Part shown: in pieces, positions 75 through 7,179 of the stretch
Layout: each line of letters begins with the position of its first letter
Position numbering within the stretch: position 1 is the stretch's first letter
Source of the DNA: a bacterium
GTDB lineage: Bacteria; Coprothermobacterota; Coprothermobacteria; Coprothermobacterales; JAADFF01
Direction: 5' to 3'
Assembly (NCBI GenBank): GCA_027063755.1
Contig: JAMORD010000076.1
Location: 1-8,548 of the forward strand
DNA: 8,548 bases
Position numbers and translations under genes: made by a program
Notes under the pieces: model-generated
What the model saw: the letters and a program-made list of their open reading frames with translations, nothing else
Database searches by the model: none
Told to the model about the DNA's origin: nothing

Positions 75-109
75 CCTACCGTATAAAACATAAAATCTAG
101 CAGGTAGTG

Positions 110-223
110 GACCCTTCGGGGATGGGTGAAATTCCCTACCGGCGGTGAAAGCCCGCGAGCCCTACGGGGTTGACACGGTGGAATTCCGTGGCCGACGGTG
201 AAAGTCCGGATGGGAGAAGGGTC
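110..223 (+). promoter_or_regulatory. FMN riboswitch aptamer (RFN element)
   Basis: The sequence follows the RFN consensus throughout. Stem P1 is GACCCTTC (110-117) paired with GAAGGGTC (216-223), eight perfect pairs. Inside it are the conserved blocks GGGTGAAATTCCC (124-136), ACCGGCGGTGAAAGCCCGC (from 138), a CGG-GAATT-CCG hairpin (from 176), and GGCCGACGGTGAAAGTCCGGATGGGAGA leading into P1. These make up the six-stem aptamer that binds flavin mononucleotide. It lies directly before a riboflavin transporter gene, a classic target of this riboswitch, so high FMN should lower riboflavin uptake. Recognition is firm; the ligand follows from the family. Confidence 0.97.
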
Positions 224-226
224 AAA

Positions 227-261: not shown

Positions 262-810
262 ATGCACAAAGAAACGCTTTACTTAAAAAAACTCTTATTA
301 CTCTCCATTCTCATTGCTATCTCATTTGTTCTTGCCAAATGGCAAATTCCATTTTTCCCACCTTACAGCTTCTTGAAGTTTGACCTATCAGAAGCACCAA
401 TGATCATAGCTGTACTTATGTATCCAGAACTCACGATCATCGCAGCACTGGCATACACAGCATTGGCATATATGATTCATGATCCTGTTGGTGCAACATT
501 TAAAGTAGTAGCTGTGTTATCAATGATCCTTCCAATAGGATTAGGAAACTATAAAGCATCTGCACACAAAAAACATGCAAGATTTCATATCGTACTTCTG
601 GTATTGGGCGTAGCTAGTCGTATAGCTATCATGATAGGGGCTAACTACTATCTCATAGAAATGACTCACTTCTGGGGAAATTATTCTATGCCTACTATTT
701 ATTATCTTGTCATTATTCCTCTGTTCAACTTAGGTCAAGCAGTACTTAATATTGTTGTAGCATATCTTACAACCTTACAGCTACAAAAAATAATGACAGG
801 AGAGTCTTAA
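262..810 (+). CDS. ribU: riboflavin ECF transporter substrate-binding subunit RibU
   Basis: This 182-residue integral membrane protein is the S component of an energy-coupling factor transporter. It binds riboflavin and needs the EcfA/A'/T module, not encoded here, to import it. The family signature FLKFDLSEAP (37-46) corresponds to the FLKYDFSD-P block of RibU proteins. Other matching parts are VASRIAIMIGANYY (117-130) and FNLGQAVLNIVVAY (155-168). About six hydrophobic segments are visible, near residues 9-25, 46-54, 56-72, 82-95, 107-133 and 145-172, and the length is normal. The ATG is placed eight bases after GGAAGGGGG. The upstream FMN riboswitch independently supports the substrate. 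The stop overlaps the stop of convergent fapA by four bases inside a palindrome. Function is assigned by family and regulation. Confidence 0.95.
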   Translation: MHKETLYLKKLLLLSILIAISFVLAKWQIPFFPPYSFLKFDLSEAPMIIAVLMYPELTIIAALAYTALAYMIHDPVGATFKVVAVLSMILPIGLGNYKASAHKKHARFHIVLLVLGVASRIAIMIGANYYLIEMTHFWGNYSMPTIYYLVIIPLFNLGQAVLNIVVAYLTTLQLQKIMTGES

Positions 811-822
811 GACTCTCCTGTC
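795..822. terminator. bidirectional terminator: perfect 28-nt palindrome over two stop codons
   Basis: GACAGGAGAGTCTT (795-808) is followed at once by its exact reverse complement (809-822). The RNA of either strand can form a long stem, although the centre must open to make a loop. Reading leftwards, the stem is followed by ATTATTTTTTG, a good U-tract for the fapA transcript. Reading rightwards, the tail TTATCTAA is weaker for ribU. Both genes end inside it with overlapping TAA codons, written TTAA at 807-810. The symmetry is seen directly; terminator function is inferred. Confidence 0.85.
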
Positions 823-2438
823 TTATCTAAAGAAGAAATTATATCTATAGGTGGCGGGTCTTGCCATGGCTTTACCCTGAGATTTCTACTCTCATCGCAG
901 GTAAGCACACAGTTTTCATATATACGGTCAATATCAAAGGTTGTGTCGTAGAAAGTTGCATGCACTTTAGGATACACCCTATCTTTTACATATATTTTCT
1001 TTCCAGACCGTAATGATTTTATCTCTGAAAGAAGATATTCATACTCCTCTTTTAGTTGCTGGTACTGCTGTCTAAGCTGAGACTCCTCTTCCTCTAAAGA
1101 AGCAACTTTTTTTATAAGACCTAAATTTCGTGCCTTGGTAAGGTCCTTCTCCACATCCATGAGTTTTTTCTTGAGTTCCACAACCTCAGAAGATAGCGTT
1201 TCAAAGTGTTCCCTAACCACAGGGTCAATACCTACTCCTACATATGTATCTGTACCCCTATCGTTACCAAGAAGAGGTGTCACAATATCATCACGGGCCA
1301 TGACCTCCCCTCCAACAATCTTGCCGCGGGCACGAGATAATATATAAACAGCACCACCTGCTCTTACTGTGCTTTGCATAAGGACATCTTGCACAACAAC
1401 ATGTCCATTGGTTTCTACTTTAGCCGATACGATTTCTTTTGCTATTACATTACCACCAGCCTTAACATATCCACCTGTTTTACATGTAATACGACCTTCC
1501 ACCTCAACATTCCCTCCAGCTTCAACAACGGCATCGGTTACAGACCCTTGAATGTATACATCTCCATTGGCAATAACCTTAAAACCAGGCAGAACATCAC
1601 CATAAATACGAACATTTTGCACATTAGTGATATTACCAACCTCATAATTAACATCACCATTGACAACAAAAGTATCTTCCACAACATACTTACCATAGGA
1701 TTTTCGCAATATACCACTCCTTTTGGCTACAACTCTTAAACCATCAGGGGTAACCTCTGTGCCATCACCAGCGTATGTAATAAGATTAATATCCTTACCA
1801 GGCCGAGGAGGAATAGGCTCACCAAAAACATCTTCACCAGGGATACCTGGGGTAGGTGGCACTTTCTCTACAATTACATCACCTTCTGCGACAAAGATAT
1901 GTGAAGATATAGAATGCCAATCTATGTTTTCTGTAGCAGAAATCTCTATGGGTTTATCGGGATCTATTCTAATAATAACTTCAGCATCTTTGCCCTTTTC
2001 AGGCGGTTTTCCCATACCTACAAGCATCTTTTTACGGGGATGGGTAAGAGCCTCTTCAATAAGTGATAAATCATACTTCTTAATCCCTTTGGATTCCAAT
2101 TCCATCACCACATCTTTTATCGTCATCGGCTTACCATCACCAAGCGGAGGATGATAAACAATATGAACCTCTTGTTTATTAGGAGATACATGAATCTCTA
2201 TATGACCATCACGATTGACAGGGGGACCAAGAAGTACCCATTGACCTAAATTGCGTATAGCCATACCAATGGCTTCAAGACTACTAATAGGTATTTTTTC
2301 TTCTGCAAGCACCCTTCTAACAACAGGCGGTGCTATCTTTTTCTTTAAACGAAGATAAGTTCCCTGTTTGTTGACATACAGCTCTATACCATCTGCAATT
2401 TCTACTCCGCGCCATGCACTACCTGCTACTGCACTCAC
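807..2438 (-). CDS. FapA/DUF342 polymerising beta-helix protein
   Basis: This is a 543-residue member of the FapA (flagellar assembly protein A, DUF342) family. An N-terminal region (about 1-240) includes the PPTPGIPGEDVFGEPI block (194-209), typical of the family. Then comes a repetitive parallel beta-helix (about 259-380) rich in turns such as NGDV, GDV, AGGNVEV and AGGAV. A heptad-like coiled coil (about 410-478, many K, E and L) and a short domain containing VYPKVHATF (488-496) follow. There is no signal peptide or membrane helix, so it should be cytoplasmic. The start is GTG in a GTGA overlap with the upstream DUF77 stop, with GGGGAG seven bases before it. Despite the family name, no flagellar gene is nearby, and many DUF342 members are found outside flagellar loci. 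Family is firm, cellular role unknown. Confidence 0.88.
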   Translation of the reverse strand: MSAVAGSAWRGVEIADGIELYVNKQGTYLRLKKKIAPPVVRRVLAEEKIPISSLEAIGMAIRNLGQWVLLGPPVNRDGHIEIHVSPNKQEVHIVYHPPLGDGKPMTIKDVVMELESKGIKKYDLSLIEEALTHPRKKMLVGMGKPPEKGKDAEVIIRIDPDKPIEISATENIDWHSISSHIFVAEGDVIVEKVPPTPGIPGEDVFGEPIPPRPGKDINLITYAGDGTEVTPDGLRVVAKRSGILRKSYGKYVVEDTFVVNGDVNYEVGNITNVQNVRIYGDVLPGFKVIANGDVYIQGSVTDAVVEAGGNVEVEGRITCKTGGYVKAGGNVIAKEIVSAKVETNGHVVVQDVLMQSTVRAGGAVYILSRARGKIVGGEVMARDDIVTPLLGNDRGTDTYVGVGIDPVVREHFETLSSEVVELKKKLMDVEKDLTKARNLGLIKKVASLEEEESQLRQQYQQLKEEYEYLLSEIKSLRSGKKIYVKDRVYPKVHATFYDTTFDIDRIYENCVLTCDESRNLRVKPWQDPPPIDIISSLDKTGES

Positions 2439-2784: not shown

Positions 2785-3399
2785 ATGGCTATCAATTCTA
2801 AGATGCCGAGTATATCGGTAGACAAAGAAGAAAAGTGGACCTACCAATTCTGGAAATATCTTATGGCTGGTTTATGGATTATTGGTTTTACTTTAAGCAC
2901 AACGATTAATCTTCGTATGTTCCATTCCTACATGGTTTTTGCACTCTATCCCATACTCATTGCAATGTTTTTCCTTGACAGGTATGGCATCATGTTTGTA
3001 TCAGGTATATCTGTAGCGGTAGCTATGTGGTTTCTTGAAAGCTACTATCTTATGCCATGGTATTTCCTCATATACGGGTTTGCAGCATTCGTGGCATATA
3101 ATTATGCTCATGTAGACACTAAGTCTACCAATTTTTCTATAGAAATACCACATATTACCCCAAAACCGAAAATCAAAGATGAGAGAAATACGATATATGT
3201 GATGTATGCTATGCTCATCGTTGCCATAGGAAGTACACTTGTAGACCTATTTTCCTTTGGGAAAACTATATTTATAACAAGATTTCCTATCCATATTATA
3301 GAGGCTGCCATATCGGGAATTGGGGCTATGCTAACAATTATGTTATATGAGTTTATAAAGGAAAAGAGGAGCAAACGCTCCCCTTACAAACCTATCTAA
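2785..3399 (+). CDS. six-helix membrane protein of unknown function
   Basis: I do not recognise this 204-residue protein. Hydrophobic segments lie at about 23-41, 48-64, 69-87, 91-108, 137-157 and 168-191, with a 28-residue polar loop (109-136) rich in Lys, Pro and Asp. The C-terminus is strongly basic (KEKRSKRS), which suggests both ends face the cytoplasm. Size and helix count resemble ECF transporter S components, but no substrate signature is visible, so that is only a guess. No Shine-Dalgarno precedes the ATG at 2785; it sits where transcription should start, so the mRNA may be leaderless. An in-frame ATG at 2803 also lacks a ribosome site. Coding status is supported by the long membrane-type reading frame and its fit between a promoter and a convergent gene. 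Confidence 0.75.
   Translation: MAINSKMPSISVDKEEKWTYQFWKYLMAGLWIIGFTLSTTINLRMFHSYMVFALYPILIAMFFLDRYGIMFVSGISVAVAMWFLESYYLMPWYFLIYGFAAFVAYNYAHVDTKSTNFSIEIPHITPKPKIKDERNTIYVMYAMLIVAIGSTLVDLFSFGKTIFITRFPIHIIEAAISGIGAMLTIMLYEFIKEKRSKRSPYKPI
3368..3381 (-). terminator. possible terminator of the tdh-to-transaldolase operon
   Basis: On the minus strand GGAGC-GTTT-GCTCC forms a five-pair stem with a four-base loop, followed by TCTTTTCCTTT. It lies about 28 bases past the transaldolase stop, inside the last codons of the convergent membrane gene. The stem is short and the U-tract is interrupted, so this is a modest candidate. Confidence 0.4.
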
Positions 3400-3408
3400 G
3401 CAGTATTT

Positions 3409-4068
3409 CTACTTGCCCAACTTCTCTTGAAGAGCATTCCAGTCATTTTTGAATCTTTCAATTCCCTCATCGGTAAGTGGGTGCTTAAACATCATTTTTA
3501 GAACTTTAAATGGCATTGTCACAATATCTACACCAAGTAGTGAAACTTCTTTTACATGTCTAACACTGCGAGTACTGGCAGCAATAATTTCTGTATCAAA
3601 GTCGTAGTTCCAGAAGATATTAACAATCTCTTCAACGAGCTTTATGCCATCCCAACCTCTATCGTCAAGTCTCCCCATAAATGGAGACACATAGGTTGCT
3701 CCAGCTTTAGCTGCAAGAAGGGCTTGCATAGGGGTAAACACAAGCGTAACATTCGTTTTAATCCCTTCTTTAGACAAGACACTAACAGCCTTGATACCTT
3801 CAGGTGTCATAGGTATCTTTACTACAACATTGTCAGATAAAGATGACAGTTCCCTCGCCTCTTTGATCATACCATCGGCATCTTCGCTGATAACCTCAAG
3901 GCTCACGGGACGGGGATATACAAGTTTCAATATATCTTTAAAGTGAACATCGGGATCACGACCTTCACGTGCAATAAGTGTGGGATTTGTTGTAACACCA
4001 TCAAGCACACCCCACTGTAGCGCCGTTTCAATCTCTTTAAGATTGGCTGTATCAAGATAGATTTTCAT
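3409..4068 (-). CDS. tal: transaldolase, small TalC/FSA-like family
   Basis: A (beta/alpha)8-barrel class I aldolase of about 219 residues. With ATG at 4068 as residue 1, visible features are Asp6 in [16 protein letters not shown] (24-32), the Schiff-base lysine Lys84 in VVVKIPMT, and SPFMGRLDD (128-136). Glu58 (SLEVIS) and Phe130 (SPF) occupy positions that are Gln59 and Tyr131 in E. coli fructose-6-phosphate aldolase. Both match the true transaldolase pattern, so I favour transaldolase (sedoheptulose-7-phosphate plus glyceraldehyde-3-phosphate giving erythrose-4-phosphate plus fructose-6-phosphate) over FSA activity. ATG gives the usual MKIYLDTA start, ten bases after AAGGGGG; TTG at 4074 is only four bases from it. 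It follows rpoZ after a short gap and is probably the last gene of the operon. Confidence 0.9.
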
Positions 4069-4093
4069 GGTCAAACCACCCCCTTAAACAGTT

Positions 4094-7152: not shown

Positions 7153-7179
7153 AAGGGCTCAGGGAAAACCTGAGCCCTT
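7153..7179 (-). terminator. terminator between the aminotransferase gene and tdh
   Basis: An 11-pair perfect stem (7153-7163 with 7169-7179; AAGGGCTCAGG arm) with a five-base loop. On the minus strand it is followed by TATATATTTTG, giving a U-rich though interrupted tail. It lies about 50 bases after the aminotransferase stop and ends some 25 bases before the tdh ATG. It most likely ends the aminotransferase transcript; partial read-through into tdh remains possible because no clear tdh promoter is seen. Confidence 0.8.

Follow-up and report, generated by a model that had tools for sequence, protein, structure and literature searches.

Hairpins that end transcription of two convergent genes have been described for several bacteria (TransTermHP, PMC1852404; Bacillus cereus, PMC5381666; Zymomonas, PMC7566282). 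In brief, one hairpin lies at the convergent junction, and the A-tract on one side of the stem serves as the U-tract of the other strand. Such shared terminators are conserved more than one-way ones, and their stems evolve via compensatory changes (PMC5381666). The known cases are mainly intergenic. Convergent genes that overlap by four nucleotides, in the tetramers CTAA, TTAA, CTAG or TTAG, are also documented (PMC2174442, in extract). The same extract lists, for 58 convergent overlaps in E. coli, a Rho-independent terminator for one gene in 19 cases and different terminators for both genes in 2; the overlap described here is one of the tetramers that it names, and within it no shared palindrome giving matched protein tails is reported.

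Two further systems bear on hairpins that reach into coding sequence. In E. coli, a stop codon placed a few bases before a terminator cuts its efficiency from about 90% to less than 10%, the ribosome covering the stem (PMC4824070). The stem begins before the stop codon in that system as it does here, where this holds for two genes at once. Hairpins shaped by template switching show paired changes in their arms (PMC8794818), as does the present one; they have been described for RNA genes, whereas the arms considered here encode two proteins.

We analysed a window of 8,548 bases, the whole stretch of DNA presented above. The genes ribU and fapA converge near its start, and their ends lie within a perfect 28-nt palindrome, GACAGGAGAGTCTTAAGACTCTCCTGTC (Table 1). 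The arms, 795-808 and 809-822, are 14 nt each, 100% complementary and without a spacer, which confirms the palindrome that the initial annotation had placed at the 3' ends of the two genes. It is the sole perfect element of that arm length in the window, and by chance about 3-4e-5 perfect 28-nt palindromes are expected per 8,548 bases of this composition. RNA folding gave -21.1 kcal/mol on both strands, with a z score of about -6.

Table 1. Position of the features at and around the ribU-fapA junction in the window
Feature	Position	Strand	Basis
FMN riboswitch RF00050, upstream of ribU	108..225	+	117.2 bits, E 1.5e-27
ribU, ECF transporter substrate-binding component, 182 aa, ending ...KIMTGES*	262..810	+	PF12822, E 2.6e-9
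U-tract ATTATTTTTT of the predicted fapA-direction terminator, within ribU codons	785..794	-	terminator scan
Palindrome; RNA hairpin of 12 pairs with a UUAA loop on either strand; codes TGES twice	795..822	both	arm search and folding
TTAA, in which both TAA stop codons overlap; also the hairpin loop	807..810	both	sequence and ORFs
fapA (DUF342 / FapA), 543 aa, ending ...SLDKTGES*	807..2438	-	PF03961, E 5.7e-58; PF20250, E 6.6e-35
Weak U-tract TTATCTAAAG on the ribU side, within fapA codons	823..832	+	permissive scan

The genes in this analysis are long open reading frames chosen mechanically rather than annotations. The name ribU is given because the ECF S-component domain PF12822 sits behind an FMN riboswitch, RF00050, and fapA is named from PF03961 and PF20250; both names agree with those first proposed. 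The ribU stop is the TAA at 808-810 on the forward strand and the fapA stop the TAA at 809-807 on the reverse strand, so the genes overlap by four nucleotides. The initial annotation described the stops as halves of TTAA. The tetramer does supply both of them, but each stop takes three of its four bases and two bases are shared. The ORF translations bear out that both proteins end in Thr-Gly-Glu-Ser and that both genes enter the palindrome in the same phase, so that one element gives two protein tails and two stop codons. There is likewise no non-coding spacer, and the tails of the hairpin both fall in codons of the opposite gene.

Identical TGES ends and mirrored stops follow from the palindrome and the shared phase: each codon in one arm recurs in the other, and a stop in either frame brings its mirror image in the opposite one. 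Matched tails, paired stops and the four-base overlap thus amount to a single fact and not to independent coincidences. A shared phase has a chance of about one in three for any palindrome that spans both gene ends. It is the palindrome itself, and not the identity of the tails, that needs explanation.

The motif is present as a single copy in the source genome (matching on both strands, as a palindrome does), and no match with three or fewer mismatches was found in six relatives. A dispersed palindromic repeat, such as a REP, an RPE or an uptake sequence, was rejected on these grounds.

Among nine genomes of the phylum, ribU and fapA are adjacent elsewhere only in a second species of the same genus (G001, contig JAADFF010000083.1), and a genome scan for the same junction returned that contig alone. 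In Coprothermobacter the RibU and FapA genes are about 60 kb apart. In the sister species the two genes still overlap by four nucleotides (there TTAG, another of the documented tetramers), the hairpin is retained, and the junction reads GGCAGGAGAGGCTTAGGCTTCTCCTGCC. Both of its proteins end in AGEA instead of TGES.

Over the palindrome the two species are identical at 22 of 28 positions, and five of the six differences lie in the stem. The pair 796/821 is A-T in the window and G-C in the sister species, and the pair 805/812 is T-A in the window and G-C in the sister species; in each case both sides differ. The pair 804/813 differs on one side only, G-C in the window and G-T in the sister species, giving G-U on the ribU strand and A·C on the fapA strand. 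The loop pair 807/810 also differs. In a simulation of five random stem changes, at least two double changes that restore Watson-Crick pairing arose with P = 0.006; the covariation consists of two paired changes, in an arrangement present in two species only. These are differences between two species and carry no direction of change. The flanks are 67% identical on the ribU side and 80% on the fapA side. The hairpin is stable on both strands in both species, with -23.7 kcal/mol on the ribU strand and -18.7 on the fapA strand in the sister species.

The double changes hit first codon positions in both genes, and the Thr/Ala and Ser/Ala differences are consequently alike in both proteins. We read a hairpin that is conserved while its paired changes have like effects on the two proteins as a sign that pairing is selected over residues. 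It could instead be proposed that selection falls on the C-terminal peptide, which might serve each protein as a tag for stability or sorting, with the palindrome as a by-product. A matching tail in both proteins of both species would agree with this. The tail itself is not conserved between the species (TGES versus AGEA) while the pairing is kept, however, and selection on protein alone needs no base-by-base pairing of codons. The Pfam domains moreover stop about 13 and 28 residues short of the two C-termini, and the Coprothermobacter homologues end differently. We regard a selected peptide as very improbable.

The sister species also settles the question of an accident. The source genome is fragmented (251 contigs) and convergent genes often overlap by 4 nt (17 cases in our sample), so a chance palindrome or an assembly artefact at such an overlap might be suspected. 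Such a palindrome is expected only about 4e-5 times per window, and the separate assembly of another species has a hairpin at the same locus with different bases, which refutes this reading; we give it practically no credence.

Paired changes of this kind may also come from template switching (quasi-palindrome mutation), in which, during replication, one arm serves as the template for the other and paired changes arise as single events, without selection on RNA. Template switching can make or keep hairpins and mimic compensatory changes (PMC8794818), the copy in the window is perfectly complementary over 28 nt, and both double changes could be a single event. The arms of the sister species are imperfect at 804/813 and at the loop pair 807/810, though, so correction has not been continuous. 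Nor does such a process explain why a T-rich tail adjoins the hairpin in each of the two species or why this genus has a surplus of terminators near stop codons. We consider template switching unlikely as the explanation of the element; with two species compared, it may still have produced the paired changes, and in that role it agrees with a terminator function and does not compete with it.

Based on these observations, we think it probable that the palindrome is an intrinsic (Rho-independent) terminator common to two convergent genes and built wholly from their coding ends, with the pairing under selection and the tails dispensable. It lies at a convergent junction, as bidirectional terminators do. 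The fapA strand has a GC-rich stem with a short loop (7 of the 12 pairs are GC, 4-nt loop, -21.1 kcal/mol) directly followed by a U-rich tract, ATTATTTTTT, the equivalent of which in the sister species is AGTATTTTTT. On the ribU side, TTATCTAAAG passes a permissive scan only, with the stem shortened by two pairs, and the standard scan does not accept it; the ribU-strand tail after the hairpin in the sister species is TTACTTGATG. The predicted terminator thus has a good consensus fit toward fapA and a weak one toward ribU. The element had first been described as a bidirectional terminator. Of that description, the hairpin and the U-tract on the fapA side hold up well and the ribU side is weak; termination in both directions is possible, as judged from the sequence.

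A narrower form of the same explanation, and not an exclusive alternative to it, is that the hairpin ends transcription of fapA only, while ribU transcripts read into antisense fapA or are ended by Rho. The good U-tract is found on the fapA strand only in both species, and Rho was found in both genomes. The sole unbalanced change in the sister species nevertheless favours the fold of the ribU strand, and short T-rich tails such as TTATCATG occur at other shared hairpins of that genome. We hold strictly one-way termination to be a tentative reading, at somewhat less than an even chance. Our best reading is that the terminator works mainly for fapA and possibly for both genes, with the counterpoint that the 804/813 change in the sister species weakens the better-tailed fapA direction.

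We suggest that RNA polymerase arriving from fapA would form the hairpin and release in the U-run within ribU. Transcription of ribU may be stopped less efficiently, or its message may merely be trimmed to the hairpin and shielded there. Selection would act on base pairing, leaving the final tetrapeptide of each protein dispensable and the two tetrapeptides drifting in lock step. As to the origin, a terminator between convergent genes may have been invaded after earlier stops were lost, each gene now ending at the UAA of the loop. FapA extends 12-13 residues past its PPPI motif here and 6-7 residues in the Coprothermobacter homologues, and the longer end is what would be expected if the gene had acquired a tail by extending into the hairpin.

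Since the stem starts before the stop codon, and ribosomes repress such terminators in E. coli, the proposed function is predicted to require an RNA polymerase that runs ahead of the ribosome. In Bacillus subtilis RNA polymerase outruns the ribosome, according to work cited in PMC12207403.

Convergent gene ends and terminators were surveyed in about 1.9 Mb, comprising 734 kb of the sister species, 95 kb of the source genome (G000), 400 kb of Coprothermobacter (G002), 20 kb of G003 and 658 kb of others. In the sister species, 56 convergent pairs have ends no more than 60 nt apart; 16 of them have a strong shared hairpin, and in at least four of the 16 (the ribU-fapA locus, L064, L080 and L133) the stem enters coding sequence. 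None of the 27 convergent pairs in the Coprothermobacter sample has a strong shared hairpin. At L080, L133 and the orthologous loci L059 and L064, stems reach 15-17 nt into coding sequence. The orthologous pair (L059:5978-6002 in the source genome, L064:9643-9667 in the sister species) is convergent and shares a 13-14 bp hairpin that extends 16 nt into the end of one gene.

Among the 17 four-nucleotide convergent overlaps in the sample, a strong hairpin is found at the ribU-fapA locus only, in two species. Besides ribU-fapA, the survey gave one more candidate for a hairpin reaching into the ends of both genes. This is L032, where one partner is a short ORF of 108 aa, the overlap measures 30 nt, and there are a mismatch and three G-U pairs; it is probably not real.

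Predicted terminator stems whose start precedes the end of the stop codon by 6 nt or more were found for 3 of 62 genes in the source genome, two of them being the element at 795-822, and for 5 of 704 genes in the sister species. There were none for 363 genes of the Coprothermobacter sample and none for 561 genes of the other genomes; mid-gene controls for the terminator scan gave 0-3 hits per genome set. Stems before the stop codon in this lineage, which by genome kinship is a sister family of Coprothermobacteraceae, lead to the prediction that the ribosome lags behind RNA polymerase in these bacteria.

In comparison with known bidirectional terminators, this element consists of codons throughout, from the arms and the loop to the two tails, and one U-tract is weak. 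The kinds of component are known, and the unusual variation on them is that two unrelated proteins have tails that co-vary in lock step. Our literature search, which covered papers outside subscription, turned up no description of convergent genes that owe matched tails to a single palindrome. We lean, if only slightly, towards a dual-coding terminator in which selection on RNA pairing drives matched substitutions in two unrelated convergent proteins (TGES/TGES versus AGEA/AGEA); stems inside coding ends would be tolerated in this lineage. The locus would then be a clean natural case in which two proteins together appear to have their sequence dictated by a structural constraint on nucleic acid and not by what the proteins do. 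Two matched species display the change in both tails, and the lineage is one in which terminator stems can begin before the stop codon.

Predicted intrinsic terminators were found for approximately 13-23% of genes in the two members of the genus and for approximately 4% in the Coprothermobacter sample, and they sit nearer to the stop codon in the former. A genome without Rho, which would force the use of intrinsic terminators, was rejected as a cause, as Rho is present in both genus members. The coding purine bias is 0.531-0.535 in the source genome, the sister species and the Coprothermobacter sample versus 0.526 elsewhere, and is uninformative on runaway transcription.

Two further hairpins were noted in the window. 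One, at 3364-3385, is terminator-like for a transaldolase-like gene on the reverse strand (3409-4074) and lies inside the end of a convergent gene at 2785-3399; it is kept in the sister species but for one loop base. The gene at 2785-3399 encodes a predicted membrane protein of 204 aa that has no Pfam match and is conserved near fapA in the sister species. The other, at 7153-7179 on the reverse strand, is a strong terminator-like hairpin of 11 pairs with a T-rich tail, located between a tdh-like gene and an aminotransferase gene.
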